Source: a virus. Taken from it: a stretch of DNA of 22,831 bases. Made by a program: the position numbers and the translations under genes. Below, piece by piece: positions 2-21,213 of the stretch. Below the pieces are notes generated by a model, which searched no databases, was not told where the DNA came from, and saw only the letters and a list, made by a program, of their open reading frames with translations. The first letter of the stretch is position 1; each line of letters opens with the position of its first letter. The stretch covers positions 1 through 22,831 of the IMG/VR virus record IMGVR_UViG_3300007519_000078. One strand, given 5' to 3'.

Positions 2-214
2 AAGGATATCGAAATATTCGGCAAAGAAAATTTCAAGCGTGAAATAATTAGACTTTGTAAAGCAAAAGGTGAGTTGCATTATATGGAATTGAAGTATCAG
101 ATTGATAACAATGTGCTTTTTCGTGACGATTTTTACAATAATATTGTGCAAACACGCATACATGGAACGCACGTTTCTACGCTACGAGAAGAGTTGCTTA
201 AAGTTACTAAATAA
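2..214 (+). CDS. SegE-like GIY-YIG family protein, C-terminal part
   Basis: Only the last 70 codons are in the window; the frame is open from the left edge to TAA. Visible pieces are FGKENFKREI and an acidic helix with MELKYQ, followed by DDFYNNIVQTRIH. This resembles the C-terminal half of the SegE-like GIY-YIG proteins of T4-superfamily phages, in which FGK..F..EI is followed by a helix carrying the catalytic glutamate. The GIY and YIG strands would lie off the left edge, so activity cannot be judged. The 3' end carries an early-type promoter and a late-type box for the next gene. The family call is from memory of the fold pattern and is moderate. Confidence 0.6.
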   Translation, partial: KDIEIFGKENFKREIIRLCKAKGELHYMELKYQIDNNVLFRDDFYNNIVQTRIHGTHVSTLREELLKVTK

Positions 215-222
215 TATATAAT
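194..222 (+). promoter_or_regulatory. Putative early sigma70-type promoter (TTGCTT-17-TATAAT)
   Basis: TTGCTT at 194-199 and TATAAT at 217-222 are separated by exactly 17 bp and preceded by AG, giving the AGTTGC form shared with other sites in this window. Transcription would start near 229, about 26 nt upstream of the ATG at 255. The site lies inside the end of the preceding gene and overlaps a CTAAATA late-type box. Confidence 0.65.
207..213 (+). promoter_or_regulatory. Putative T4-type late promoter box CTAAATA
   Basis: CTAAATA followed by ATATATA, lying in the spacer of the early-type promoter. It resembles the T4 late -10 box (TATAAATA) and the CTAAATA-like late boxes of T4-like cyanophages. 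Expected start is about 6 nt downstream of the box. Confidence 0.45.
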
Positions 223-1866: not shown

Positions 1867-2125
1867 TCAAGATCTATATAAAGAAAAAGTACTAGAGCTA
1901 TTACGAGCATCAGAGACTCCTGTTGCAATTGCGTTCAACAAGGTAGATGGTACGATCCGTCAAATGAACGCTACTCTCAACCCTGCTTTGATTACCTCGA
2001 CATATGAGAAAACCACCGATACTGTCAAGACGCCAAATCCGGATAACCAGGTTGTATTCGATACAGACATTGGTGCGTTTAGAAACTTCCGCTGGGATAA
2101 CCTTCTAGAGGTTCGCTTCCCGTAA
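1841..2125 (+). CDS. SH3-barrel (WYL_2/DUF2693-like) small phage protein
   Basis: A 94-residue protein whose core reads VAIAFNKVDGTIRQMNATLNP and, at the end, VFDTDIGAFRNFRWDNLLEV. This is the pattern of the T4-superfamily SH3-like beta-barrel family formerly DUF2693 (v.F.K.DGt.R.m..Tl.p, then vwD.e...wR.fr.dsi). The biochemical role of the family is not established; some members sit near replication genes. ATG at 1841 is chosen over an in-frame GTG at 1832. Its TAA overlaps the ATG of the glycosyltransferase (TAATG), indicating translational coupling. Confidence 0.75.
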   Translation: METNATTSNQDLYKEKVLELLRASETPVAIAFNKVDGTIRQMNATLNPALITSTYEKTTDTVKTPNPDNQVVFDTDIGAFRNFRWDNLLEVRFP

Positions 2126-4209
2126 TGATCAAAACAGACGAACTATCTGCGAACGCAAAGGGTGGTACTGAACTTCTAAAAGGGAGACTTCATGATTTCC
2201 TCGTAGAAAAGCACCCAGAACATCTTGAAAACATAGATTTTTATTTCTCGAGAGTTCGTGATTTTGACGAAAATCGGCATTCGGTGTACTATGCTCATGA
2301 TTTGCCCGGAGACCCGGAAACAGAGCATTTAAAGACAAGTTTATACAATTTCGATGTTCAGGTGTTTGTTTCGTATTGGCAACACCAACAGTTCCTCGAA
2401 AAGGGTTATCTACCCGATGCCCGAGCGTACAACACTGTAATAATTCCCAACTCAATTAACATCGATTATGATCTAAAGCCGATTTTAAATAATAAGTTTA
2501 AAATCGGATTAGGTCGAAAAGAATACCCGATCAAGTTAATATACCATACTACACCTCACCGAGGCCTAGCTATTCTACTCCCGGTGTTTAAAACTCTATA
2601 CACTCAACTACAAGAGCAGGGCATCTATATTACCCTTGATGTGTATAGTTCGTTTGAAATATACGGTTGGGGTAGTCGAAACCAACAATATCAACACTTA
2701 TTTCAAGAGTGTATAGATCATCCAGGTATTACATACCACGGTACTGTATCAAACGAAGAAGTGCTTGAAGCCCTTAAACAATCTCATGTTTTTGCATTCC
2801 CGTCGATTTGGCCTGAAACGAGTTGCCAGCTAGCAGGCACTAATATACTTACTAAACTTGGTGTTAAAAACATCGAAGATATTCAAATTGGAGATGAAGT
2901 GCTTTCCCACACTGGGGTTTTTCGTAAAGTAACAAAAACATTTAGTAGGGAGTATAACGGAAAACTCTATGGATTCAAACCTATTGGAGTACATAAAACA
3001 GTATACTTTACAAACGAACATCCATTATACACGGGAATTATACATAAGCAAAAAACGGCTAAATATAGTAAATCAGACACTAAAAAAATATATAATACAG
3101 TTTGGAAAAATGCAGAAGACTTTAATAAACAAACAGAAGTGTTATTACGAGTAAAACAACACGAACAGAATCTTGAATATATTAATATATATGATTACAT
3201 GCAGGGTGAACATAATCTCGTTAATGAATTAGATGAAATTACTAGTATTCGTAATACATATAGTTCTTATAAAAAAGTACTAAATCGGCAGAAAATAACA
3301 CCTGAGTTTGCATATATTCTCGGGTTAATGGCTGGTGATGGACATGCTTCAAAAGCTGGAACGCTAACGCTAGCACACCACGTATCTGAAACAGATAACG
3401 TTGCACGCTTTATTGATTTTTTTGGAGGAGTAGATAAGCAAACATCTGAAAACGGTGGAGTGGTTACAGCGCATAATAAAATATGGGCGAACTTCATTAG
3501 AGGTACGATTGGCGTCAGCAGAGATAAAAGGGTACCGTCATTTATTTGGGATTGTTCGTTCGCGATTCAAGAAGAATTTTTAAATGGATATTTTGCAGCT
3601 GATGGGCACACTAATAAACACAACCGAAAAACAATTCAATCAATATCTATTTCTCTCATTCACGGAGCAACGCAAATACTAACAAATTTAGGTAAATTTG
3701 CAACCGTGTGTGAAACACCTAAAGTCAAGGCATACACTGTAAGTTGGAATGATATTGAACAAAAAAGTAAATGTATAAAGTATGAAAACTTAATCGGGTT
3801 AAAATTTCGAGAAAAAGATAAGATTCAACAACCTATTGATTATAGCGGAATGGTATACAACTTTGAAGTTGAGGTAGATCATTCCTATGTAACAGAAACA
3901 TTTGTAAGTCATAACTGTCTAGCTCTTATTGAAGCAATGGCAACTGGAAACTTCTGCGTTCACAGCTCACTTGGCGCCCTTCCGGAAACTTCTGGTGGCC
4001 TCACACATATATATCCATTCGTACCAAATCCAGAAATCCACGTAGATTTGTTTACAGCTCATCTTACGAAGGTTATCAAACATATAGCTGAACGATACGA
4101 TTTAACGAAGCTTGCAAAGGCGAGTGAGTATATAAGAAACAAACATTCCTGGGCAACAGTCCAACATAAATGGACCGAACTGCTGAATCAAGTTGCACCA
4201 TCTACGTAA
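2125..4209 (+). CDS. GT-B glycosyltransferase precursor containing an intein
   Basis: The 694-residue precursor should splice to a 330-residue GT4-like glycosyltransferase. The N-terminal extein (1-233) has the early glycine motif AKGGTELL, a second Rossmann half beginning KLIYHTTPHRGLAILLPVF, and HGTVSNEEVLEALKQSHVF. The C-terminal extein continues CLALIEAMATG and SLGALPETSGG. After splicing, PETSCLALIEAMATG restores the EX7E nucleotide-sugar motif (E231 and E239). The acceptor is unknown; modification of phage DNA or of a surface glycan are both possible. It ends the SpeD-glutaredoxin-SH3 cluster and carries the early promoter of the next gene in its last codons. Confidence 0.82.
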   Translation: MIKTDELSANAKGGTELLKGRLHDFLVEKHPEHLENIDFYFSRVRDFDENRHSVYYAHDLPGDPETEHLKTSLYNFDVQVFVSYWQHQQFLEKGYLPDARAYNTVIIPNSINIDYDLKPILNNKFKIGLGRKEYPIKLIYHTTPHRGLAILLPVFKTLYTQLQEQGIYITLDVYSSFEIYGWGSRNQQYQHLFQECIDHPGITYHGTVSNEEVLEALKQSHVFAFPSIWPETSCQLAGTNILTKLGVKNIEDIQIGDEVLSHTGVFRKVTKTFSREYNGKLYGFKPIGVHKTVYFTNEHPLYTGIIHKQKTAKYSKSDTKKIYNTVWKNAEDFNKQTEVLLRVKQHEQNLEYINIYDYMQGEHNLVNELDEITSIRNTYSSYKKVLNRQKITPEFAYILGLMAGDGHASKAGTLTLAHHVSETDNVARFIDFFGGVDKQTSENGGVVTAHNKIWANFIRGTIGVSRDKRVPSFIWDCSFAIQEEFLNGYFAADGHTNKHNRKTIQSISISLIHGATQILTNLGKFATVCETPKVKAYTVSWNDIEQKSKCIKYENLIGLKFREKDKIQQPIDYSGMVYNFEVEVDHSYVTETFVSHNCLALIEAMATGNFCVHSSLGALPETSGGLTHIYPFVPNPEIHVDLFTAHLTKVIKHIAERYDLTKLAKASEYIRNKHSWATVQHKWTELLNQVAPST
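2824..3915 (+). mobile_element. LAGLIDADG intein in the glycosyltransferase EX7E motif
   Basis: A 364-residue in-frame insertion starts at Cys1 (CQLAGTNILT) and ends SHN before Cys+1. Block A contains IGDEVLSHTGVFRKV, block B has FTNEHPLYTG with the conserved T..H, and the C-terminal blocks are VYNFEVEVDHSYVTETFV plus SHN|C. Two LAGLIDADG helices are present, LGLMAGDG (intein residues 166-173) and FLNGYFAADG (252-261), both with the metal-binding Asp, so the endonuclease looks intact. It is much more AT-rich than the extein, as expected for a recently mobile element. This is a canonical class 1 intein (Cys1, terminal HN, Cys+1). Confidence 0.93.
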
Positions 4210-4221
4210 AGAGCCTATAAC
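4193..4221 (+). promoter_or_regulatory. Putative early sigma70-type promoter (TTGCAC-17-TATAAC)
   Basis: TTGCAC (4193-4198) and TATAAC (4216-4221) with a 17 bp spacer and the AGTTGC lead-in. It sits across the stop codon of the glycosyltransferase gene. The expected start near 4228 leaves a 20 nt leader with CAGGAG before the ATG at 4248. The sequence is nearly the same as the promoter at 20865-20893. Confidence 0.7.
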
Positions 4222-4247: not shown

Positions 4248-5417
4248 ATGGCACGAGCCGCTCGTAAACTTCAAAAGACCAAAAAGCCTACTATTCGCGT
4301 CGGCCCTATGGCAGCGAAATCGATCGCTATCAAAGGATACGGATCGGAACCTGAGATCAAGTCTGACTTCTCTGCATCGGGTCTGACCGCCGCTTTGAAT
4401 TGGTATAATACAGTCGAAGAGCCTGATGCGCATATCGAATCACTCTTTGCCGAGATGAAAGCGCGCGACTACAGCAAAGCCGATATCGCTGCGATGAAGC
4501 GAGCCGCTTCACAAAAAGGATTCTGGCAACATTCTGTACTCGTCATCGCTCGGATGCTGCAGCGTGAGATTATTCTCCCATACGACGTTCTTACGCGATG
4601 GGAAGAGAAGGTTACAACCCTGATTGCTCAAGGTTACACGATTCGTGAAGAGCGAGTTGCTGAAGCCGAAGAGAAAGGCATTGTACTCTCGATTCAAGAG
4701 CGCACCGACAACAAAGCCAATGAGATGTTCGTCGCATTTGACGATCTTGCCGATGAAGTTTGGACGAACGAAAAGCAACTCAAAGACTTGAAGTTCTTCG
4801 AAATCTTCAAAGAGATGGACATCAAGCCTGGACATGCACGTCGTCTTGTTGAGCGCTTCAAAGAATCGGTTGAAAAGTATGCAGAGAATCCTGCAGACTA
4901 CTCCAAGGAAACTCTGAAGACTCAGGTGCCGTTCTGGACCAATCTACTCGATGCAGCTTCCACATGGGCTTCTGAAAAGCAGGCCAAGCCGAAGACGGAT
5001 GCACAACTGAAGCGTGAATCGGTTCGCCTCGCACTTACGAGCGCCAAGCGTGAAACCAAAGCGGTATCTGGTCTAAAGTATAAGCCTTCGGATGACGATA
5101 CTGGCGTTATCAGTCAGAATCCTTCCGGTATTATTGGCGCTCAAGTTGCGGTTCTTTACAACACCAAGTATAATCTACTGACGGTGTTGTACGCTAAGGG
5201 TGCCGCGGGGCTTTCGATTAAGGGTACGTCAATCATTAACTACAATGAAGACGAATCTAAGACCAAGCGAGCAGGTCGAGCTGCGGCTACTGTAAAGGCC
5301 ATGGCATCGCAACCTAAGACTACTCTAAAGAAGTCGTTCGACTCAGTCAAAGGTACGCCAGTTGAAGCTAAAAATCGCACTTCTGAAGAAGTGATTATCG
5401 TTCGAATCATCAAGTAG
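4248..5417 (+). CDS. Conserved-type phage protein of unknown function, 389 aa
   Basis: I do not recognise a family. The N-terminus is basic (MARAARKLQKTKK). The middle (about 60-260) is mainly charged helix, rich in Lys and Glu, with possible coiled-coil around VAEAEEKGIVLSIQE. The C-terminal part (about 290-389) includes a beta-rich stretch (GAQVAVLYNTKYNLLTVLYA) and a basic tail. No catalytic motif is seen. Codon use is GC-richer and more regular than in the neighbouring intein and homing genes, which hints at high expression. It has the best ribosome site in the region (CAGGAG) and an early promoter directly upstream. A DNA-binding or virion-associated role would be a guess. Confidence 0.8.
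   Translation: MARAARKLQKTKKPTIRVGPMAAKSIAIKGYGSEPEIKSDFSASGLTAALNWYNTVEEPDAHIESLFAEMKARDYSKADIAAMKRAASQKGFWQHSVLVIARMLQREIILPYDVLTRWEEKVTTLIAQGYTIREERVAEAEEKGIVLSIQERTDNKANEMFVAFDDLADEVWTNEKQLKDLKFFEIFKEMDIKPGHARRLVERFKESVEKYAENPADYSKETLKTQVPFWTNLLDAASTWASEKQAKPKTDAQLKRESVRLALTSAKRETKAVSGLKYKPSDDDTGVISQNPSGIIGAQVAVLYNTKYNLLTVLYAKGAAGLSIKGTSIINYNEDESKTKRAGRAAATVKAMASQPKTTLKKSFDSVKGTPVEAKNRTSEEVIIVRIIK
5146..5174 (+). promoter_or_regulatory. Putative intragenic early promoter (TTGCGG-17-TATAAT)
   Basis: TTGCGG (5146-5151) and a perfect TATAAT (5169-5174) with a 17 bp spacer and AGTTGC lead-in, inside the 389-residue gene. A transcript from here would start near 5181 and carry both arms of the hairpin at 5432-5480. 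It may be a chance match inside coding sequence, but all elements fit the family. Confidence 0.45.
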
Positions 5418-5431
5418 GGAGATGCCTACCG

Positions 5432-5480
5432 CATATCGTCTCCTTTGACTAAATAGTACAGTAGTAAAGGAGACGATATG
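5432..5480 (+). promoter_or_regulatory. Hairpin occluding Shine-Dalgarno and start codon
   Basis: CATATCGTCTCCTTT (5432-5446) is the exact reverse complement of AAAGGAGACGATATG (5466-5480). The right arm contains the Shine-Dalgarno AAAGGAG and the ATG of the gene at 5478. RNA that includes both arms would form a 15 bp stem with a 19 nt loop and block initiation. The loop holds a CTAAATA late-type box whose expected start (about 5461) excludes the left arm. This is the layout known for T4 genes e and soc. Confidence 0.8.
5449..5455 (+). promoter_or_regulatory. Putative late promoter box CTAAATA in hairpin loop
   Basis: GACTAAATAG in the loop of the occluding hairpin. Initiation about 6 nt after the box would give a leader of roughly 17 nt (GTAGTAAAGGAGACGAT), with the ribosome site single-stranded. 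Confidence 0.55.
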
Positions 5481-7637: not shown

Positions 7638-9461
7638 ATGGCCGCAGCTTCAACCCGACGCTCGAAAAGAGACCAAGCAGGTAATATTAAGAGTGCATTA
7701 GTACTCAAAAAAATTGAAGGATTAACTGATACACAAGATATTGTATTTGCACAATTCGCCCTCGGTCAACATCTTAACTTACACGGCTTCGCAGGTACAG
7801 GCAAGGCACAGCCGTTAGACAGTCTTATTAAAACGCCAACTGGGTGGATAAAAATGGGTGATGTTGTCTTAGGGCAACAGTTATCAATGCCAGATGGAAC
7901 TATCAGTCTAATAAACGGGATATTTCCGCAAGGTAAAAAAGCAATCTACAAAATAACTTTCTCAGACGGGCGTTCTACAGAATGTTGTGATGAACACCTT
8001 TGGCGGGTGTATAACTATTCCTGGGGTCGAAAGCCGCAAAAGGATTATATAAAAGATAAATCTAGAGATGATATGTGGAGAGTTTTATCCCTTAAGGAGA
8101 TAATGGAGTTTAAAGGAATACATCCGCTAAAAATACAATTACCCATACCGATTGAAACCCCGGATATTGATTTGCCTCTAGATCCATGGTTACTAGGTAT
8201 TTTAATTGGAGATGGTTCCCTCACAACTCAACCTTCCTTTTCCTCTATTGATGAAGAAATAATAACCCGGGTAGGACAGCTTATCAGTGTAGACGGGTAT
8301 AAACTTACTCCTAAAAGTGATGGAGTAAGCTATGGTATAGTATCGGAATTAGTTCTTCAGGGTGCACGAATAGAGGGACAATATTTAAATAAATATAGGC
8401 GAATTATATCAGATTTAAATTTAAATTGTACAAGTTATTCTAAATTTATACCAGATATTTATAAACAAGCCTCTATTACGCAAAAATTAGAATTAATCAG
8501 AGGATTAATGGATAGTGATGGATGTGCGGAAAAAACAGGCGGAGCTTCGTTTACGACAACAAGTAAACAATTAGCAAATGATTTTACAGATATTATTCGT
8601 AGTCTAGGGGGTATATGTTCAATTAAATATAGAGATGATACAAGTTATACCTATAATGGTGTTAAGAAAATCGGTGTACCTAATTATACTTGTCGTATAC
8701 GAGTTAAAGTACCGTCAGATTTATTTTTTCTTTCTCGAAAAAAAGCTCGCTGCAAGTATAAGAACCAATACTCTGAATTTTTAAATCTTGCAATTAAGCA
8801 AATAGAGTTTATAGGAGTAAAGGAGGCTCAATGTATTTCTGTTGATCACCCTGAACATCTCTATATAACAGATAATTGGATTGTTACACATAATACTTAT
8901 CTTTCAATGTATCTAGCACTTAAAGCAGTATCTCGCGGCGAGTATAAAAAAGTCGCTATCTTTAGAAGTGCAGTTGCCTCGAGATCTATTGGATTTCTAC
9001 CAGGCAATGAACAAGAAAAAATGGCAGTATTTGAAGCCCCATATAAGGCAATTTGTGCCGACTTATATGATCGGGGCGATGCATATGACATACAAACGCG
9101 AAACGGTATTATCGAATTTAACTCAACGTCTTTTGAACGCGGCACTACCTACGACGATACCGTTATTATTGTAGATGAATGTCAATCAATGGGTTGGAAC
9201 GAACTAAACACATTATGTACACGAGTCGGTGAAAACACCCGCATTATCTTCTGTGGAGATCTCCGGCAAACAGATCTAAAATTTGAAGATGAACGATCAG
9301 GTCATAGAACATTCTATGAAATAATCAAATTAATGGAGGATATTTCCTCAATCGAGTTTAGACTTGAAGATATTGTTCGGTCAGGATTCGTAAAATCATG
9401 GATAGAGGCTTCGATCAAATACGAATCTCAGAATAATACTTCGCTATTGAGGCTTATATAA
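7638..9461 (+). CDS. phoH: PhoH-like ATPase precursor containing an intein
   Basis: A 607-residue precursor that should splice to about 244 residues. The N-extein (1-56) ends HGFAGTGK and the C-extein starts TYLSMYLALKAV, so splicing restores the Walker A motif GFAGTGKT. The C-extein carries VAIFRSAVASRSIGFLPG, Walker B VIIVDECQSM and the sensor-like FCGDLRQTDL, all typical of the phage PhoH family (nucleotide-binding, related to the PhoH half of Pho-regulon proteins; exact role in phage unknown). The C-terminus SLLRLI is probably altered by the adjacent homing endonuclease (see 10174-10236). ATG follows AAAAAGGA. Only an intein-spliced product could bind ATP normally. Confidence 0.9.
   Translation: MAAASTRRSKRDQAGNIKSALVLKKIEGLTDTQDIVFAQFALGQHLNLHGFAGTGKAQPLDSLIKTPTGWIKMGDVVLGQQLSMPDGTISLINGIFPQGKKAIYKITFSDGRSTECCDEHLWRVYNYSWGRKPQKDYIKDKSRDDMWRVLSLKEIMEFKGIHPLKIQLPIPIETPDIDLPLDPWLLGILIGDGSLTTQPSFSSIDEEIITRVGQLISVDGYKLTPKSDGVSYGIVSELVLQGARIEGQYLNKYRRIISDLNLNCTSYSKFIPDIYKQASITQKLELIRGLMDSDGCAEKTGGASFTTTSKQLANDFTDIIRSLGGICSIKYRDDTSYTYNGVKKIGVPNYTCRIRVKVPSDLFFLSRKKARCKYKNQYSEFLNLAIKQIEFIGVKEAQCISVDHPEHLYITDNWIVTHNTYLSMYLALKAVSRGEYKKVAIFRSAVASRSIGFLPGNEQEKMAVFEAPYKAICADLYDRGDAYDIQTRNGIIEFNSTSFERGTTYDDTVIIVDECQSMGWNELNTLCTRVGENTRIIFCGDLRQTDLKFEDERSGHRTFYEIIKLMEDISSIEFRLEDIVRSGFVKSWIEASIKYESQNNTSLLRLI
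7806..8894 (+). mobile_element. Class 3-type LAGLIDADG intein in the PhoH Walker A motif
   Basis: A 363-residue intein starts at Ala1 (AQPLDSLIKTPTGW) instead of Cys or Ser and ends VTHN before Thr+1. It has the three residues that define class 3 inteins: Trp66 in block B (EHLW), Cys343 in block F (QCISV) and Thr361 in block G (VTHN). In this class the block F Cys starts splicing in place of residue 1. LAGLIDADG helices LLGILIGDG (Asp136) and LIRGLMDSDG (Asp238) look intact. The insertion point is between Lys and Thr of GTGK|T. Base composition is more AT-rich than the PhoH extein. Confidence 0.9.
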
Positions 9462-10173
9462 GCAAACTAACATAATATCCAGCAACACACGTATTTAAGC
9501 GTTTAGCTTTTTGTAATGACCCTAAACCTATAGAATTGTCTTTTGCAAACTTTGTTAAGTTGCGTATTATACGCTCTTCGCCAGTCGGAAGAATAATTCT
9601 ATAGGTTTTCGATTTTAACATTATATGTCGTTCTTTTTCTTGCGCATTTGCCCAACGCTTGTTGTTTCGTTCAGTAAGAGCTTCGCGACGTTTAGGGTCT
9701 TTCCACCGGTCTTTAACGGCTTGAATTACCTTAGCCTGTCGCTCCGGTTGTCTAATTAGTGCTAACTGTGCTTTTCTAAAATCCGGATCATCCCAACGTT
9801 TACGAAGACCGTCAGCGCGTTTACGTATATGATCAACACTCTGCGTATACCCAGGATTATTACAAAAACTAGAGCTTGTTATTTTAACATTAATTAATTT
9901 ACTTCGGTGCTTGGAAAATAGTTTCTCGAGTACCTTTTCTTCCCATATAAACGCACGTTCGCGTGAATTAAATGTTTTACGTACACTAGCAACAAAGGCA
10001 GCATCACCAAATTGGATTCTCAACTTTTTGATCCGCGTAGAACTAGAAAAATATACATGCCAAAGATCTTCTTTTGGCGAAACCCGATTACCTACACGGA
10101 CACCATAATATATTTTATCTAACGGTATACAGTAAAGTAAGTATGTGTATGGTGTTTGTCCATAAATATTCAT
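9454..10173 (-). CDS. SegE-like GIY-YIG homing endonuclease
   Basis: A 239-residue free-standing endonuclease. The nuclease domain (about 8-95) shows the variant GIY-YIG pair YLLY (11-14) and YYG (22-24), Arg26, DLWHVYFSSS, FGDAAF and IWEEKVL with the catalytic Glu, matching SegE-like domains. Residues about 115-180 contain repeated RW.DP units (RKRWDDPDFR, KDRWKDPKRR) like NUMOD-type DNA-contact modules, and the tail (ILPTGEERIIRNLTKFAKDN) is a typical phage GIY-YIG C-terminal module. It is antisense to phoH, overlapping its last 8 bp, with a strong GAGGAGG ribosome site and a CTAAATA box upstream. An 8 bp inverted repeat (GAGGCTTA 9449-9456, TAAGCCTC 10176-10183) flanks it. Confidence 0.85.
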   Translation of the reverse strand: MNIYGQTPYTYLLYCIPLDKIYYGVRVGNRVSPKEDLWHVYFSSSTRIKKLRIQFGDAAFVASVRKTFNSRERAFIWEEKVLEKLFSKHRSKLINVKITSSSFCNNPGYTQSVDHIRKRADGLRKRWDDPDFRKAQLALIRQPERQAKVIQAVKDRWKDPKRREALTERNNKRWANAQEKERHIMLKSKTYRIILPTGEERIIRNLTKFAKDNSIGLGSLQKAKRLNTCVAGYYVSLLI

Positions 10174-11849: not shown

Positions 11850-12021
11850 AACATCACTGAGAAATTATCTTCAGTTTGAGGGGAAGTATGGCGACGAGGC
11901 ATACTTCGATCCGGATGATGCTAAGGATATTCTCGATATTCTGAATCTGTTAAAAAATGATCCACGAGAACCCAAACATAAGTTCGCGGAGTATTACTTA
12001 TCGATTGAATATGACTTCTAG
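11821..12021 (+). CDS. Small acidic hypothetical protein, 66 aa
   Basis: Starts inside the end of the phosphoesterase fragment, with AAAAGG 10 nt before the ATG. The sequence is helical: TTNLEKLKTSLRNYLQFEGKYG, DPDDAKDILDILNLLKND, EPKHKFAEYYLSIEYDF. No family recognised. Its TAG overlaps the TAG of the antisense endonuclease in a shared CTAG (12018-12021), so its natural end may have been set by the endonuclease insertion. Confidence 0.6.
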   Translation: MITTNLEKLKTSLRNYLQFEGKYGDEAYFDPDDAKDILDILNLLKNDPREPKHKFAEYYLSIEYDF

Positions 12022-12671
12022 GCTAAAGACCACCCCTTATATGGTTTGTTGTTCATTATGCGAACAATATATGGTTTTGGAATATGACATACGTCTTTGA
12101 TTTGAGAACGGTTACCTGAAAATGTTTGTCCTAATGTGTGTTTGATATTAATTATTTCGGGTTTGAAATGTGGATTATTTACACCTTTATGATTAACTCC
12201 TTTAGAAGTTTCACTCCTATGTTTACGAAGCTCTTGAGCCTTTGTACTTCCGTAGAGTTCTTCGTAGGTTTTACCAGTAAAGTGTAGCTTAGCTCGTTCG
12301 CCTTGTGCTCGTTTAACTTCTTCTGTATGAGTCTTACCAAACATTCCGTTAGCTACACCTTTTAATATAGGTCCACGAAATCCACCTTGCATTGAGTTGT
12401 ATCCTGAATTAAGGGAACCGTATTGTGCTATGAATTGATCTTCAATTATTTCTAAACAGTGAACTCTATCCCAAGACTCATATATAATCTCCCAAGTAAA
12501 GTTTTCCCAACCGTGTTTACGTAACGCTTTAGCAAATTTAGTTTTTGCATTTTGCGTAAACGCATAATATTTATGTTGATACATTCGTTGTTTTAATGAT
12601 CCGCTAGAATAACCAATATATACTTTCTCGTTAAGATAATTACGCGCAACATAAATAAAACATTTTTCCAT
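12018..12671 (-). CDS. GIY-YIG homing endonuclease with NUMOD3-like modules
   Basis: 217 residues. The nuclease domain (about 4-95) has FIY (5-7) and YIG (18-20), Arg29 in SLKQRMYQHK, a glutamate-bearing helix (CLEIIEDQFIAQYG) and the GYNSMQGG turn found in I-TevI-like and Seg endonucleases. Residues about 105-170 contain NUMOD3-like units (NGMFGKTHTEE, NNPHF). The tail ends with GNRSQIKDVCHIPKPYIVRI and KPYKGW, a NUMOD1/HTH-like end. It fills the junction between two plus-strand genes. On the minus strand a CTAAATA box and AAGGA lie just upstream, giving a leader of about 12 nt. Confidence 0.88.
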   Translation of the reverse strand: MEKCFIYVARNYLNEKVYIGYSSGSLKQRMYQHKYYAFTQNAKTKFAKALRKHGWENFTWEIIYESWDRVHCLEIIEDQFIAQYGSLNSGYNSMQGGFRGPILKGVANGMFGKTHTEEVKRAQGERAKLHFTGKTYEELYGSTKAQELRKHRSETSKGVNHKGVNNPHFKPEIINIKHTLGQTFSGNRSQIKDVCHIPKPYIVRIMNNKPYKGWSLA

Positions 12672-14292: not shown

Positions 14293-14296
14293 GCAG

Positions 14297-14325
14297 TTGC
14301 TCTTTATGTTGAAGTAGTCTATAAC
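14297..14325 (+). promoter_or_regulatory. Putative early sigma70-type promoter (TTGCTC-17-TATAAC)
   Basis: TTGCTC (14297-14302) and TATAAC (14320-14325), 17 bp spacer, AGTTGC lead-in. The expected start, about 14332, coincides with an ATG. Confidence 0.65.
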
Positions 14326-16098: not shown

Positions 16099-17088
16099 TT
16101 AGCGTATTTTGTATGTTTGAATTAAAGAGATAACATCTAAAATAGGAATATCTACTAGTAACATATCTATATTTGGTATATAGTTAATTACACCTAGTTT
16201 AATATTATTGTGTGTCTTAAGTGTATGTTTTACGTGCGTATATACAGGCATCAAAGTTGTATTAAAATCTATAAGGGCCAATGGAGCATTGGTTATATTA
16301 CTATAATACGAATGTTTTCGGTGATCACAAAACCCAACTTTTATTTCAATGTTTATATCATTAATTTTAAAATCAGGGAAAAAGATAGCTCGGTTACTTT
16401 GTTCAGGGTGCACTTCTAACGAGGCGACGTTATTTTTAATACATAATAAATAGAATGTAAACTCACCTAATGAGTAAAAAATCAGATCATTATACTGTAA
16501 CACATACCCGAAGTTACTCACAGTATTTGGATATGTTTGTAGTCCTGATACTGTAAAATTACTGGTAATATTATTTCTTGATAATTTTTGAACTTCTGAC
16601 AAAGTTCTTTTTTTAATTAAATATTTACTTAGTTTTTGAGAGATGGCGGCTGGGGAACACTGCAGTTTTTGTGCTATTGCTACCTGTGAAAGTTTATCAA
16701 CCGTATACATTTGTTCAAGTATGTTATGATTTCTAAGATTTGGTCGTCTATTGGGTATTTTATGTAATGTCTTAAATTTCGATATTACAGTTTCAGATAC
16801 TTGATATTTTTTAGATATTTGTTGATTTGTTTCTCCTAGAATAATTAGAGTTTTAATATCCTCTATACACTCCATTTCAGTTTTCCCACATTTAGTAAAA
16901 AAGCGGATACTTTCATGGGACGTTTTCTTGCCGCTTTCCTTTAACATGAATAAGTTATGCCGTTGTATTCTTTGCCGTATACTATTAGATGTAACATTTA
17001 ATATATCTGCAATATCGCGAATATACATGGTCAATCCATATTCTTCAATTAACTCATTTATTTCTCTAGTTGTTAATAACTTTTTCAT
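16099..17088 (-). CDS. Triple-HTH PD-(D/E)XK homing endonuclease
   Basis: 329 residues with no GIY-YIG, HNH or LAGLIDADG motif. Three helix-turn-helix units lie in the N-terminal half: IRDIADILNVTSNSIRQRI (about 23-41), TNQQISKKYQVSETVISKF (87-105) and SQVAIAQKLQCSPAAISQKL (134-153). The C-terminal half has a nuclease-like core: SLGEFTFYLL with Glu209, then FFPDFKINDINIEIKVG with Asp239, Glu248 and Lys250, the PD-(D/E)XK arrangement. Size, AT-rich composition and antisense position at a gene junction match the other homing genes. AAGG precedes the ATG, and a CTAAATA box lies 28 nt upstream. Nuclease activity is inferred. Confidence 0.72.
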   Translation of the reverse strand: MKKLLTTREINELIEEYGLTMYIRDIADILNVTSNSIRQRIQRHNLFMLKESGKKTSHESIRFFTKCGKTEMECIEDIKTLIILGETNQQISKKYQVSETVISKFKTLHKIPNRRPNLRNHNILEQMYTVDKLSQVAIAQKLQCSPAAISQKLSKYLIKKRTLSEVQKLSRNNITSNFTVSGLQTYPNTVSNFGYVLQYNDLIFYSLGEFTFYLLCIKNNVASLEVHPEQSNRAIFFPDFKINDINIEIKVGFCDHRKHSYYSNITNAPLALIDFNTTLMPVYTHVKHTLKTHNNIKLGVINYIPNIDMLLVDIPILDVISLIQTYKIR

Positions 17089-17140: not shown

Positions 17141-18277
17141 ATGAACCTACTTTTTAAATACCACTCATCAGACCTTAAGATATTTCAAAGAGCAGCTGAG
17201 CGATATGAGGGGTTTTATGTGCAAGACAAAGGCGACTATTGGCTTGCTAACTACCGTAGTATTATCACAAAATTTCCTTCTATTAAAATAGATAGTGGCG
17301 ATGTAGAGGACATGCAATTACGAGTTGCATGTTGGAATTCTCGCGGAGCACTGTTTGATAAAACTGGCAAACTTATAAGTCTCAGTCTACATAAGTTCCA
17401 CAATCTGAATGAAGGTGTGGAGAACCAACACGACACTCTGGACTGGTCGTCGTTTGAAGTGTATGACAAGCTCGATGGTTCGATGCTTCGCCCAGCTATG
17501 ATCAACGGTGCAGTTCGGTGGTGTACCAAAGCAGGCGTCACGCATATGACGCCTGATGTTGAAGCGTTTGTGGAACGTAACCCTGAGTATCAAGCTCTTG
17601 CGAATGCTATTATGTCGCTCGACAAAACTCCTACTTTTGAGTATATGGCTCCGAAGCATCGTATTGTTGTGGACTACGGTCCTCTAGAAAAGATGACGCT
17701 TCTCGCTGTACGTGATAATACATCGGGTGCGTATTTGTCGTACGCTGACCTTTGTTATATCGCGAATCAATATAACGTTTCCGTTGTTCAACGTTGGGAG
17801 ATCAAGCCAGAAGACGATATCCGTACTCTCGTTGCTGCACTACGCAACGCTGAGGGTGTTATTATTCGCTTTCCTAACGATCATCGCGTGAAATTGAAAG
17901 GTATGGAATATATTAAGCTACACGCACTTAGGTCGGGACTAGAATCAAAAAAGACCCAATACGAGGTATGTGTAAACGCAACCTTGGATGATATTATACC
18001 AGTTATGGGAGATAATCATTATCTCATTAAAGAAGTTACAGAAATGTTTCTGATGTATGTTAGGTTTAGAGAGTATATAATCAATACATCAGAAACCTTC
18101 TATATACAAAATAATACACTAACGAGAAAAGACTATGATATTTTAGGGCAAGGTACTCTCATCAAGCCTTGTTTTTCTATTGCTATGAACCGTTATACCA
18201 ATAAGGCGTATGATGAGCAGAAATTTATGTTGAGTTTATTTGAACCGTTTCAAGAATATCTAATACGACATTTATAA
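17141..18277 (+). CDS. rnlA: T4 RNA ligase 1-like RNA ligase
   Basis: 378 residues, near the 374 of T4 Rnl1 (gp63). Nucleotidyltransferase motifs in order: YDKLDGSM with the adenylated Lys110, FEYMAPKHRIVVDYG (motif IIIa region), EGVIIRF (motif IV) and RVKLKGMEY (motif V). The C-terminal part is helical, as in the tRNA-specific domain of Rnl1. With polynucleotide kinase, this enzyme repairs tRNA cut by host anticodon nucleases; no kinase gene is in the window. The ATG follows AGGAAA. The last 53 bp overlap an antisense endonuclease, and the extreme C-terminus may have been changed by that insertion. Confidence 0.92.
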   Translation: MNLLFKYHSSDLKIFQRAAERYEGFYVQDKGDYWLANYRSIITKFPSIKIDSGDVEDMQLRVACWNSRGALFDKTGKLISLSLHKFHNLNEGVENQHDTLDWSSFEVYDKLDGSMLRPAMINGAVRWCTKAGVTHMTPDVEAFVERNPEYQALANAIMSLDKTPTFEYMAPKHRIVVDYGPLEKMTLLAVRDNTSGAYLSYADLCYIANQYNVSVVQRWEIKPEDDIRTLVAALRNAEGVIIRFPNDHRVKLKGMEYIKLHALRSGLESKKTQYEVCVNATLDDIIPVMGDNHYLIKEVTEMFLMYVRFREYIINTSETFYIQNNTLTRKDYDILGQGTLIKPCFSIAMNRYTNKAYDEQKFMLSLFEPFQEYLIRHL

Positions 18278-19379
18278 TTTTAGGAGTAAAGCATTCGCAA
18301 TCTCCTCCTATTTTGTAGAGTGGTGTATATCTGTTGCGATAACAATGCTCGTTTAATATTTTTTGTTCAAGTTCAAACAAGGAGGCTAAATTCCCGTTTA
18401 TTTGAGTTATAATTTTAATATTATACTCTTTTTTACACGATAATTGATTTATACGTTTATTAATATTTTTAGTAATACCCACTTTATAAAATTCTTCAGT
18501 ATTGGAAGTAAATTTTAACACATACAATACACCCCGCAAATTTTGATTTTTAGGATCTTGGAAAAACTTATAACTATACCTCCCTCCAGTGTAGCATTTT
18601 TTACAACCCTGGCTGTTAGAAACATGATTACTCCATGTTTGAGAAAATTTGCCGTGTATACTACATAATATAACTACTCTTTTGTTTGTACTCTCTTCTG
18701 AGATATAAACATATTTACCCTTATGTACCGCTAAAGCTTTTTTAATTTTTTGTTCAATAGGTATTGTATGGGCTTTACCTATACGTATATTAGCACATTT
18801 GGGGCATCCACTTTTTTCATATATGTGATTACCAACGGTAGGTGAGAATATTCCATGATTGGGGCATAATACATTAATCTTGTCAGCATTGCGAGTGAAG
18901 CTCAAATTGGGATAAGTGTACTCACCTTTATGTATATGTTTTACTCGCTGCAAAAAGGTATCTATTGATAACGCTCGCTGGCGATTTGAGCATTCAGGGC
19001 ACCCATTTAATCTAATATGATCTGAAGGTCTCTGTTTAAAAATTCCGTGGATGTTGCAAATAATATCTACTTTTTGATTCATCCCTGTGTATTTTACTAA
19101 TGAATAATCATATCTCATACCATGAGTCGTAATACTTCTTTTGATGATATCTTCGAGATTATGCATTTTAGTATTGCTTATTTTAATATGTCCACATTTG
19201 ATACACCCCGACCCTCTTAAATGACAAGTAGGCATTTGGTAAAATATACCGTGAGTAGGGCAACGTATTAATACTTTTGTTTTTGTATCTTTAAAAATTA
19301 ATGCTGTGTAATCATAATATTTTTTATGTACTACTTTCGCTAATTCAATAAAACTCTCGGTTGTATGTCGCGTCATCAC
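18225..19379 (-). CDS. Homing endonuclease: four zinc repeats plus GIY-YIG-like domain
   Basis: 384 residues. Four tandem units of the DUF723 type each have C-x2-HG-F, a His, then GCxxC: Cys40/His43/Cys59/Cys62, Cys108/His111/Cys127/Cys130, Cys172/His175/Cys192/Cys195, Cys239/His242/Cys259/Cys262. Each is preceded by a helix with vH...Y.Y. The C-terminal domain (about 283-375) is GIY-YIG-like: VLYVLKF, YKVGIT (298-303), NKRINQL with Arg309, and LFELEQKIL with Glu338. Start is GTG at 19379 or ATG at 19376, with AGGAG upstream. It overlaps the RNA ligase end tail-to-tail. The zinc repeats probably read the target site. Confidence 0.82.
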   Translation of the reverse strand: MMTRHTTESFIELAKVVHKKYYDYTALIFKDTKTKVLIRCPTHGIFYQMPTCHLRGSGCIKCGHIKISNTKMHNLEDIIKRSITTHGMRYDYSLVKYTGMNQKVDIICNIHGIFKQRPSDHIRLNGCPECSNRQRALSIDTFLQRVKHIHKGEYTYPNLSFTRNADKINVLCPNHGIFSPTVGNHIYEKSGCPKCANIRIGKAHTIPIEQKIKKALAVHKGKYVYISEESTNKRVVILCSIHGKFSQTWSNHVSNSQGCKKCYTGGRYSYKFFQDPKNQNLRGVLYVLKFTSNTEEFYKVGITKNINKRINQLSCKKEYNIKIITQINGNLASLFELEQKILNEHCYRNRYTPLYKIGGDCECFTPKIINVVLDILETVQINST

Positions 19380-19430: not shown

Positions 19431-19532
19431 TACGACATTCGCTTCGAAACTGAAGTGCGTAATCGCATCTTCGCTAACCCCTACGCACTACCTATCTGGA
19501 ACATTTGGGAGCATACATCTGATGAAGAATAA
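19431..19532 (+). pseudogene. 3' remnant of a native gene cut off by the endonuclease
   Basis: An open frame of 33 codons without a start reads YDIRFETEVRNRIF, then ANPYALPIWNIWEHTSDEE, and ends with TAA overlapping the next gene's first codons. The base composition is like the native phage genes, not like the AT-rich endonuclease next door. The in-frame coupling to the gene at 19522 suggests the end of a real upstream gene. The parent could be the RNA ligase or a lost gene. It also contains an 8 bp inverted repeat (AGTGCGTA 19454-19461, TACGCACT 19482-19489). Confidence 0.45.
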
Positions 19533-20364
19533 ATTTGTACTAATTACTACTGCTGTTATCGCGAGTATTGTACTATTCGTGTCATACACATCTCCGTATA
19601 GTTTACCTAATACGATCGAGAACGCAGCAATCGCAAATGATGCGCCTTCGTTGATGAGGCATATCGACTACGAAGCGGTTATTATCACGCTTTCAACCTC
19701 TGCTGGCGCGAACGCGTTACCGGGGTACGAAGAGATTTCAAGCAACATTGCGGCGCTCATGTACTCATCTTTCCTGACGCCCTCAAATACTACTGACTTT
19801 TATCGTAATGTCAATCCGACAGTAGGTGATATCTCTATCGATTTCGTGCAGAATACCTTCGATACGGATACCTATAAAGCCCGATATGTCGATTTTAATA
19901 CGTTTGAGTATTTGATTAGCACAAAAGTAACAGATGGGACTCTTACTCATTATGTTATTACTGCTTCTCGAACCAACGTTTCTAGCTGGAAAATTACGTC
20001 GATTACATATACAATTGAGGATAATCCGACGGTGTTTCAACCTGCATCATTTACGGCGGAGCAGCCCATGATGCAGGTTGACACAACACGTCGACTCTCA
20101 ACCCCAACCCGCAACGTATATTGCGAAGTAGATTCAGAAAATATCGCCTGCGTAAACAAGAATAATGATGGTATGTATTGTTCACAGAATCTTTGTGAAT
20201 ATGATGAAACTGGGGAGCTCGCGTTTAGAACAGACGGAGTAATTACTCGGAGTATAGTGACAGTAGGATCTACTACATGCTCATTTACGGAAACAGACGT
20301 ACGGTGTAATGCTAGACAAACTGGTGCTACTACTGACGACACTGGTGTGCAACTACACAGATAA
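19522..20364 (+). CDS. Membrane-anchored DUF2939-like protein with Cys-rich tail
   Basis: 280 residues. Residues 5-22 form a signal anchor (KFVLITTAVIASIVLF), followed by SPYSLPNTIENAAIANDAPS and LMRHIDYEAVIITL, the start pattern of DUF2939 (sPy....l..A...gDa..l...iD...v). The C-terminal 80 residues form a separate Cys-rich part: TPTRNVYCEVDSENIACVN, MYCSQNLCEY, TTCSFTETDVRCNARQ. This resembles the secreted SPSGNI.C...C / F.C....GV.C domain common in actinobacteria. The protein would sit in the inner membrane with its domains in the periplasm, where the Cys pairs could be oxidised. GGGAG precedes the ATG. Function unknown. Confidence 0.65.
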   Translation: MKNKFVLITTAVIASIVLFVSYTSPYSLPNTIENAAIANDAPSLMRHIDYEAVIITLSTSAGANALPGYEEISSNIAALMYSSFLTPSNTTDFYRNVNPTVGDISIDFVQNTFDTDTYKARYVDFNTFEYLISTKVTDGTLTHYVITASRTNVSSWKITSITYTIEDNPTVFQPASFTAEQPMMQVDTTRRLSTPTRNVYCEVDSENIACVNKNNDGMYCSQNLCEYDETGELAFRTDGVITRSIVTVGSTTCSFTETDVRCNARQTGATTDDTGVQLHR

Positions 20365-20390: not shown

Positions 20391-20657
20391 ATGACTGATA
20401 AAGTACCAAGCAACGATGTAACTCTAGAACAAGCGCAATCTCGTTTGAAAGCGTTTATCGACAGACTTCAACGGCTCGACGAAGATAAAAAAGCTGTGGC
20501 AGAAGATATGAAGGAAGTCTTCGCTGAATGCAAAGGTGAAGGATATGATGTCAAAATCATCAGAAAGATTCTCCGTATCCTAGCTCAAGATAAAGCTAAG
20601 CGTCAGGAAGAAGAAGCCCTCACAGATCTCTATCTATCTGCTCTCGGCGAGGCCTAA
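20391..20657 (+). CDS. gapR: GapR-like (DUF2312) DNA-binding protein
   Basis: 88 residues matching DUF2312 over the whole length: LKAFIDRLQRLDEDKKAVAED, MKEVFAECKGEGYDVKIIRKI and DKAKRQEEEALTDLYLSALG. In Caulobacter, GapR binds overtwisted AT-rich DNA ahead of replication and transcription and stimulates topoisomerases. Phage copies of the family are common in alphaproteobacterial phages. They may help replication of phage DNA or compete with the host protein; this is inference. ATG follows AAGGA. The stop overlaps the next ATG (TAATG). Confidence 0.88.
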   Translation: MTDKVPSNDVTLEQAQSRLKAFIDRLQRLDEDKKAVAEDMKEVFAECKGEGYDVKIIRKILRILAQDKAKRQEEEALTDLYLSALGEA

Positions 20658-20860
20658 TGTTTATCCGGTTAACATATAACAATTATTCGCGGTCGAATAA
20701 TCGAAAGTTTAATCTTCGGGCCGACTTGATTGAGCGTATTTCAGAGGGGTTTCGCGGAGGTTCCTGTGTTACTCTGACAACTGGAACGTATTACAACGTA
20801 AAAGAGTTAATGGATGATGTGACCATATTAGTAATGGTCGCGGAAGGCCGCCTCGTATAA
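20657..20860 (+). CDS. FlbD-like small beta protein (second copy)
   Basis: 67 residues: MFIRLTYNNYSRSNNRKFNL, ADLIERISEG, CVTLTTGTYYNVKELMDDV. The order (strand, n...I..I.eg, then tl..G..y.v.e) is that of FlbD-like small domains and parallels the protein at 15427, though the two differ widely. Coupled to the GapR-like gene by TAATG. It ends 3 nt before the hairpin at 20864. Confidence 0.55.
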   Translation: MFIRLTYNNYSRSNNRKFNLRADLIERISEGFRGGSCVTLTTGTYYNVKELMDDVTILVMVAEGRLV

Positions 20861-20863
20861 ACA

Positions 20864-20914
20864 GTTGCACTCTCCTATAGAATATGCTATAACATAGCTA
20901 TAGGAGAGTGCAAC
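20864..20914 (+). promoter_or_regulatory. Hairpin occluding the ribosome site of the membrane-protein gene
   Basis: GTTGCACTCTCCTATAG (20864-20880) is the exact reverse complement of CTATAGGAGAGTGCAAC (20898-20914), a 17 bp stem. TATG/CATA (20883-20886, 20893-20896) can add an upper stem. The right arm holds AGGAGAG and ends directly before the ATG at 20915. Read-through RNA from the gapR-like operon would hide the ribosome site. RNA from the promoter inside the repeat would start near 20900 and lack the left arm. There is no U-run, so it is not a standard terminator. Confidence 0.8.
20865..20893 (+). promoter_or_regulatory. Putative early promoter inside the hairpin (TTGCAC-17-TATAAC)
   Basis: TTGCAC (20865-20870) lies in the left arm and TATAAC (20888-20893), as GCTATAAC, in the loop; spacer 17 bp, AGTTGC lead-in. 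The expected start, about 20900, falls at the beginning of the right arm. Confidence 0.68.
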
Positions 20915-21082
20915 ATGATCAAGTTCATTTGGCAAAATGGTTGGTATCTGGTAACAGGGCTTCTGATTGTCGGTAAGATCACCGGGGTCGTTCGCCTCCC
21001 ATGGATTGTAGTGCTCGCACCCGCAATCGCATACTGGGTCACGATCTACTACATGATCCAACATACCCTTACAGTTCTCTAG
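20915..21082 (+). CDS. Small membrane protein, 55 aa
   Basis: Two hydrophobic segments, WYLVTGLLIVGKITGVV and WIVVLAPAIAYWVTIYYM, separated by a short turn. The KITGV..lPW..VLAP pattern resembles the small phage and prophage membrane proteins often labelled transmembrane Fragile-X-F-type, which have no known role. It would sit in the inner membrane. The ATG is directly after the right arm of a 17 bp inverted repeat with AGGAGAG, so expression seems to need the promoter inside that repeat. Too short for many gene finders but well supported by the ribosome site and spacing. Confidence 0.75.
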   Translation: MIKFIWQNGWYLVTGLLIVGKITGVVRLPWIVVLAPAIAYWVTIYYMIQHTLTVL

Positions 21083-21093
21083 GAGAGTATTAC

Positions 21094-21213
21094 ATGACCT
21101 CCAAGACCAAGGTATTACCCGCTCTGGATATCCTACTGATAGGACTTATTCTCAGACATTCTGTATACGACGCACAAAATCAACGGCAATCAGTTCGTGA
21201 GGGAGTTCAGTGA
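21094..21213 (+). CDS. Very small hypothetical protein, 39 aa
   Basis: Starts 11 nt after the membrane-protein stop with AGGAGAG in the same spacing. One hydrophobic stretch (ALDILLIGLILRHSVY) could be a short membrane helix; the rest is polar. The stop overlaps the next ATG (TGATG). Family unknown. Confidence 0.55.
   Translation: MTSKTKVLPALDILLIGLILRHSVYDAQNQRQSVREGVQ

Follow-up and report, generated by a model that had tools for sequence, protein, structure and literature searches.

A phage hairpin that joins a putative host-sigma-type promoter to a hidden ribosome-binding site and would insulate a small membrane protein gene from read-through

In bacteriophage T4, hairpins at the ribosome-binding sites (RBSs) of late genes hold the Shine-Dalgarno (SD) sequence in a stem on RNA initiated upstream, whereas RNA from an internal promoter lacks the 5' arm (PMC3014915, PMC2988022), and hairpin regulation in T4 is confined to late genes (PMC2988022). 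These elements, found at T4 genes e, soc, 49, I-TevI, and segB and at mobE of phage Aeh1, share a hidden SD and, as is predicted for it, a promoter within the element with I2, a hairpin at positions 20864 to 20914 of a 22.8-kb virus record (22,831 nucleotides, here called the window). They differ from it in being driven by gp55 late promoters and in serving late genes that are silent early, whereas I2 carries a putative host-sigma-type promoter with a -35 and an extended -10 element. In further contrast to the T4 elements, the stem of I2 is perfect over 17 bp, and its gene would be active in the early or middle period and silent on read-through RNA.

Two other known systems resemble I2 in part. 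In the leaders of the IS10 and IS50 transposase genes, transcripts from the sigma70-type promoter of the element have an open RBS, and transcripts that enter from outside fold so that the RBS is hidden; an element that has inserted into an active gene is thereby kept from expressing its transposase. The similarity lies in this mechanism as it is predicted for I2; the setting is a transposon and not a phage operon, and the gene behind I2 encodes a 55-aa membrane protein without a family match, not an IS transposase. The promoter-early stem-loop (PeSL) cassettes of phages RB49 and phi1 combine an early sigma70 promoter with a stem-loop, occur in dispersed copies, and have stem-loops described as transcription terminators. 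I2, in contrast, lacks a U-run, and its stem lies over the RBS; it is not a PeSL, because the terminator is absent. The initial annotation knew of no described early-promoter version of the T4 device, which holds for the T4 reviews consulted but not for IS10 and IS50, with their sigma70-promoter versions. No description of early-promoter hairpins in Pootjesviridae, phiM12/phiN3, or T4 was found in the open-licence literature, and judged on that literature the early form seems to be undescribed for T4-like phages.

The window belongs to a T4-like phage, as recognized by a T4-type RNase H and a phrog_11903 protein that has low-identity relatives in Caulobacter phage Cr30, Sinorhizobium phages, and others. 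Two other contigs match the window at 100% over the tested stretch, and part of the genome of this phage is also found on a third contig. The closest relatives of its GapR-like protein are found in Brevundimonas and Caulobacter phages, so the host is likely to be related to these bacteria, judging from protein similarity; an exact-peptide search of IMG/VR returned no homologues of the GapR-like protein. The genes at 19522, 20391, and 20657 lie upstream of I2 on the same strand, which places the hairpin inside a co-directional transcription unit, and a terminator scan of the plus strand between these genes and I2 found no terminator-like site. The features of the locus are as follows.

20391 to 20657, plus strand: GapR-like gene (PF10073, E value 6.9e-28), upstream of I2
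20657 to 20860, plus strand: FlbD-like gene (PF06289), with its stop codon at 20858 to 20860, 3 nt before I2
20864 to 20880, plus strand: left arm of I2 (anti-RBS), GTTGCACTCTCCTATAG, complementary to the right arm at 17/17 positions and holding the -35 GTTGCAC
20881 to 20897, plus strand: 17-nt loop of I2, AATATGCTATAACATAG, holding the -10
20898 to 20914, plus strand: right arm of I2, CTATAGGAGAGTGCAAC, carrying the SD AGGAG (20902 to 20906)
20915 to 21082, plus strand: open reading frame of the 55-aa small membrane protein, with two hydrophobic stretches

GapR-like and FlbD-like phage genes are thus adjacent in the window (20391 to 20860). In Cr30 and in Brevundimonas jumbo phages, a small gene also directly follows the GapR-like gene, and the genes beyond it differ. 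The 55-aa protein itself has no homologue in phages or IMG/VR.

Both structural claims of the initial annotation, a perfect 17-bp inverted repeat ending at an ATG and an AGGAGAG hidden within it, are borne out. All 17 positions of the arms pair, the ATG at 20915 directly follows the right arm, and AGGAGAG occupies 20902 to 20908 of that arm. The RNA fold has a predicted energy of -31.4 kcal/mol (z = -9.1), and none of 200 shuffles was equally stable. The window and other phage sequence sets were scanned, at each start that has an SD, for repeats with a right arm lying over the SD, and shuffling of the left side gave the null. The window contains two such repeats of at least 15 bp versus 0.0 expected, namely, I2 and a sister hairpin, I3, at 5432; in alphaproteobacterial T4-like phages, repeats with 12- to 32-nt loops and a score of at least 11 are present against a null of about 0. 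An intrinsic terminator at I2 was ruled out, as neither strand has a T-run after the stem and the site is absent from the terminator-scan list. No second contig covering I2 was found, but an assembly artefact at the nearby GC step is not favoured, because the step lies about 300 nt downstream of I2 and the I3 repeat is identical in two other contigs. A DNA search with the right arm gave a single match (L005), which lacks the left arm, belongs to an unrelated gene, and was set aside as a chance RBS match.

The putative promoter is distributed over the left arm and the loop, in the positions and with the 17-bp spacing given in the initial annotation. Its elements, and other sites that share its motif, are listed here.

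20865 to 20870, plus strand: -35-like hexamer TTGCAC (in GTTGC), member of the GTTGC-N19-TATAA[CT] family
20885 to 20893, plus strand: extended -10 element TGCTATAAC (TGC-TATAAC), of which the part GCTATAAC fits GCTANAWC
20900, plus strand: predicted transcription start, about 7 nt past the -10 element, in the right arm
193 to 222, plus strand: GTTGCTT-N17-TATAAT, before the gene at 255
4192 to 4221, plus strand: GTTGCAC-N17-TATAAC without a hairpin, before the gene at 4248
14296 to 14325, plus strand: GTTGCTC-N17-TATAAC, of the same promoter motif family as I2

By Escherichia coli rules, TTGCAC is a weak -35 element that matches TTGACA at only 3 of 6 positions. The -10 element (TATAAC at 20888 to 20893) is better than had been stated, as it is an extended -10 that fits the Caulobacter RpoD consensus GCTANAWC (PMC8144410), with the reservation that the Caulobacter-like host is itself predicted. 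Five copies of the motif GTTGC-N19-TATAA[CT] are present in the window, all on the plus (coding) strand and all with the 17-bp spacer, versus 0.14 expected and a maximum of one in 200 shuffles, and GTTGC and the overlapping AGTTG are the top two among all 5-mers at the -35 distance. One of the five sites lies within a coding region, and only one, I2, has a hairpin. The motif was picked after I2 had been seen, and the five-member family is therefore support and not proof; a scan with the full Caulobacter motif, TTG...GCTANAWC, gave 2 sites versus 1.6 expected, which alone is not significant. The TTGCAC-17-TATAAC pair is nevertheless probably not due to chance, and the sequence makes a host-sigma-type promoter in I2 credible. 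The earlier description of it as an early sigma70-type promoter is plausible as far as the sigma factor is concerned, on the strength of the five-member family; early and middle promoters both use the host sigma factor, and this one may be of either class.

The other promoter type to be considered is that of the late genes, and the same phage has clear examples of it.

5432 to 5480, plus strand: I3, late-type sister device with 15-bp arms (5432 to 5446 and 5466 to 5480), a 19-nt loop, and an ATG at 5478

The initial annotation had spoken of the same device, and I3 confirms this: its repeat ends at the ATG, and its loop carries the late box CTAAATA at 5449 to 5455. The boxes CTAAATA and ATAAATA are enriched upstream of the genes of this phage. 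A third device, on an upstream contig (L013), has 13-bp arms with CTATAAATA in arm and loop, carries CTATAAATATAG, and precedes an open reading frame for an HNH endonuclease, so that the late-promoter version of the hairpin occurs twice in this phage. An endonuclease with its own late-promoter hairpin resembles mobE and I-TevI. At L013:4535-8175 (minus strand), a gene for the ribonucleotide reductase large subunit is split within an intein, with the HNH endonuclease frame between the halves.

Could the I2 loop hold a degenerate gp55-type promoter, making I2 a third late device of the e, soc, and I-TevI kind? Its CTATAAC and the late box CTATAAATA of this phage have CTATAA in common, and both sister devices are of the late type. 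However, neither a T4-like late promoter of the TATAAATA type nor the boxes CTAAATA and ATAAATA are found in the hairpin, and the single-mismatch TATAAACA just outside it (20856 to 20863) belongs to a set of matches that occur at chance frequency. The candidate box in I2 lies in the 3' half of the loop, whereas the late box of the sister devices is at the 5' end, and late promoters are characterized neither by GTTGC at exactly 17 bp nor by an extended TG. A late promoter is thus unlikely, and, as far as its sequence tells, I2 is not a member of the T4 late RBS-hairpin class, because the late promoter was looked for and not found.

The best-fitting model, and the one that the initial annotation proposed, is that read-through RNA would be silent and the gene's own promoter would turn it on. 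RNA polymerase arriving from the GapR- and FlbD-like genes would copy both arms of I2, and the 17-bp stem would then hide AGGAG and the stretch leading to the AUG, with the result that no 55-aa protein would be made from read-through RNA. Polymerase with a host-type sigma factor would start at the promoter that has its -35 in the left arm and its -10 in the loop. The resulting RNA, with the predicted start at 20900 inside the right arm, would begin about 15 nt before the AUG and lack the left arm, as had been claimed, leaving the SD accessible; the shortness of this predicted 15-nt leader counts against the model. Since read-through RNA would be silent and own-promoter RNA open, the 55-aa gene would be coupled to its own promoter and uncoupled from the operon. 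In silico folding agrees: in read-through RNA the SD and/or the AUG of the 55-aa gene is paired, and the predicted probability that the SD is unpaired is 0.00 there versus 0.93 in the promoter-made RNA. Insulation from read-through translation is accordingly the likely function, and I2 probably combines a promoter with an insulator that acts at the RNA level, with a predicted start site, presumed silencing of read-through RNA, and putative early or middle timing.

The stem might instead couple translation to the FlbD-like gene, whose stop codon precedes the left arm by 3 nt: a ribosome terminating at 20858 to 20860 would open I2, and read-through RNA would be translated too. By estimate, however, such a ribosome covers only about the first 9 to 12 nt of the left arm, and the pairing of TCCTATAG/CTATAGGA, which make up the greater part of the SD region, persists; coupling also leaves the promoter motif in arm and loop unexplained, and it is quite unlikely. 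It is still harder to credit that RNase III processes read-through RNA at the stem and so gives it a translatable 5' end. The stem is long and perfect, and the fold adds 4 inner pairs to it, but after a cut within it the right arm would stay paired as long as the short duplex did not melt, and the promoter motif is again not accounted for.

Host-sigma-type promoters whose 5' arm lies upstream of the start and whose 3' arm lies over the SD, with a spacing of about 17, are also found in other T4-like phages: in Pootjesviridae (N34, Y68, RL38J1, phiM9, and OLIVR5), the related IG49 and ORM_20, phiM12/phiN3, and T4 itself (denV and regB). The rhizobial Pootjesviridae have a cassette, CTTTCTTGTTTAC[GTTTCCGTGGTTTTG]gaaTAGTATcatttcataaa[CAAAACCACGGAGAC]ttcaaATG, which occurs with variants in several copies per genome. 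Its -35 is TTTAC; the 17-bp spacer contains the left arm, the loop contains the -10, and CGGAG is covered by the right arm. The phiM12/phiN3 devices are TTGACA versions. In T4 (NC_000866), -35/-10 regions of early promoters that pair with the SD of their own gene are found at 65355 (denV), 62740 (regB), and 130253, with helix scores of 10, 9, and 8, respectively. These devices differ from I2 in that the 5' arm is usually in the -35/-10 spacer, whereas the arm of I2 includes the -35 itself; their -35 elements (TTTAC or TTGAC) are different, and their genes are not homologous.

At such promoters, pairing with the own RBS exceeds that in shuffles. As a control that excludes trivial pairing of any TCC-rich spacer with any SD, each promoter was also paired with every RBS of the same phage (3000 permutations). 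There were 28, 23, 18, and 12 own SD-covering helices at scores of at least 7, 8, 9, and 10, versus swapped means of 10.7, 8.3, 5.9, and 3.4 and maxima of 19, 15, 13, and 9; the phage sample behind these counts is uneven, and the Pootjesviridae cassettes are shared and hence not independent. At a score of at least 7, single phages with a clear excess of own pairs are T4, Y68, phiM9, and ORM_20; OLIVR5 shows it clearly at higher cutoffs only, and in N34 and RL38J1 swapped partners pair too, because the cassettes are repeated in these genomes. There was no clear excess at this score in Cr30, RB43, OspM_OC, or BUCT-ZZ01, and with the strict motif, early-type devices show no excess in Cr30, the nearest named T4-like phage. 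Sequence comparison thus supports the existence of an early-promoter version of the RBS-hiding hairpin in other T4-like phages. A Cr30 match (L044) and short-loop matches in phiM12, phiM9, and OspM_OC were set aside, as they resemble terminators or chance. A separate Cr30 locus (L041; 45364 to 45527, minus strand of KF301602) has a 15-bp RBS-covering hairpin before the gene for a 37-aa membrane protein, just after PhoH; a clear late box is absent from its loop, and there is a weak TTCAGA-17-TAAGAT.

The gene behind I2 has no homologue, and the covariation of arms described here is that of devices in other phages. The initial annotation had called for a search for changes in both arms, and compensatory changes are indeed present in the rhizobial devices and in T4/RB69 denV. 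In seven closely alike rhizobial devices, 99% of the cells are paired, and two pairs are changed on both sides (five cells); neither any of 500 shuffles nor any slid register reached the covariation score. The denV arms of T4 (TCTCCTGTAG/CTACAGGAGA) and RB69 (TTCCTCCAAG/CTTGGAGGAA) differ in their letters, yet each forms a perfect 10-bp helix around the same TTTAC...GATACTAT promoter, and the denV device of Pu-Krd-SF4 resembles that of RB69. Relatives that keep the promoter and lose the pairing had been named as evidence against the idea; there is one such case, denV of VEc20, whereas denV in T4 versus RB69 keeps its pairing. Winklervirus Virsaitis27 has no SD-covering stem. The device thus seems, from these comparisons, to be kept by selection in some lineages and to be dispensable in others. 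These data also bear on a DNA-level palindrome, an operator or recombination site with an incidental RNA stem, which is highly improbable: the I2 loop is nearly palindromic (ATGCTATAACAT), which gives the minus strand a weaker match to the promoter, but the two sister repeats of this phage have unrelated arm sequences, and all end at an SD and start codon, and in other phages the arm letters change while the pairing stays, which points to pairing and not to a binding sequence. Each of these alternatives accounts for less of the evidence than promoter-specific translation.

The RBS-hiding hairpin of T4-like phages has so far been described as keeping late genes silent early. The early-promoter form would follow the opposite logic, tying early genes to the short burst of their own promoter, and stopping translation of later read-through RNA could sharpen early shut-off. 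There is about an even chance that such hairpins make up a widespread, undescribed class in the T4 superfamily: early genes with host-sigma promoters whose -35/-10 region contains a sequence complementary to the RBS of the same gene. Such genes would respond to no promoter but their own and would be silenced once that promoter is shut off and read-through replaces it. On this reading, denV and regB would represent the class in T4, the best-studied phage, and I2 would be an extreme case of it. As denV and regB seem to have the device, this is directly testable in a laboratory phage and strain. The I2-type arrangement is, in addition, a compact design for promoter-specific expression.

Several other features of the window deserve mention. 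The next start after the 55-aa gene (TAGGAGAGTATTACATG, 21082 to 21098) has an RBS nearly identical to 20901 to 20917, and the left arm of I2 could in principle also pair with this second RBS over 9 bp. Past about 21,200, the GC content rises from about 0.42 to about 0.55; the tested genes between 21200 and 22831 have no family matches, and this stretch is possibly a recently acquired block. An 18-nt inverted repeat (94%) lies at 20033 to 20085, within the coding frame 19522 to 20364. Judged from translations only, the region is rich in mobile elements: four minus-strand frames within plus-strand operons resemble mobile endonucleases (9454 to 10173, 12018 to 12671, 16099 to 17088, and 18225 to 19379), and inteins are found on the plus strand in a glycosyltransferase-like gene (2125 to 4209) and in PhoH (7638 to 9461).
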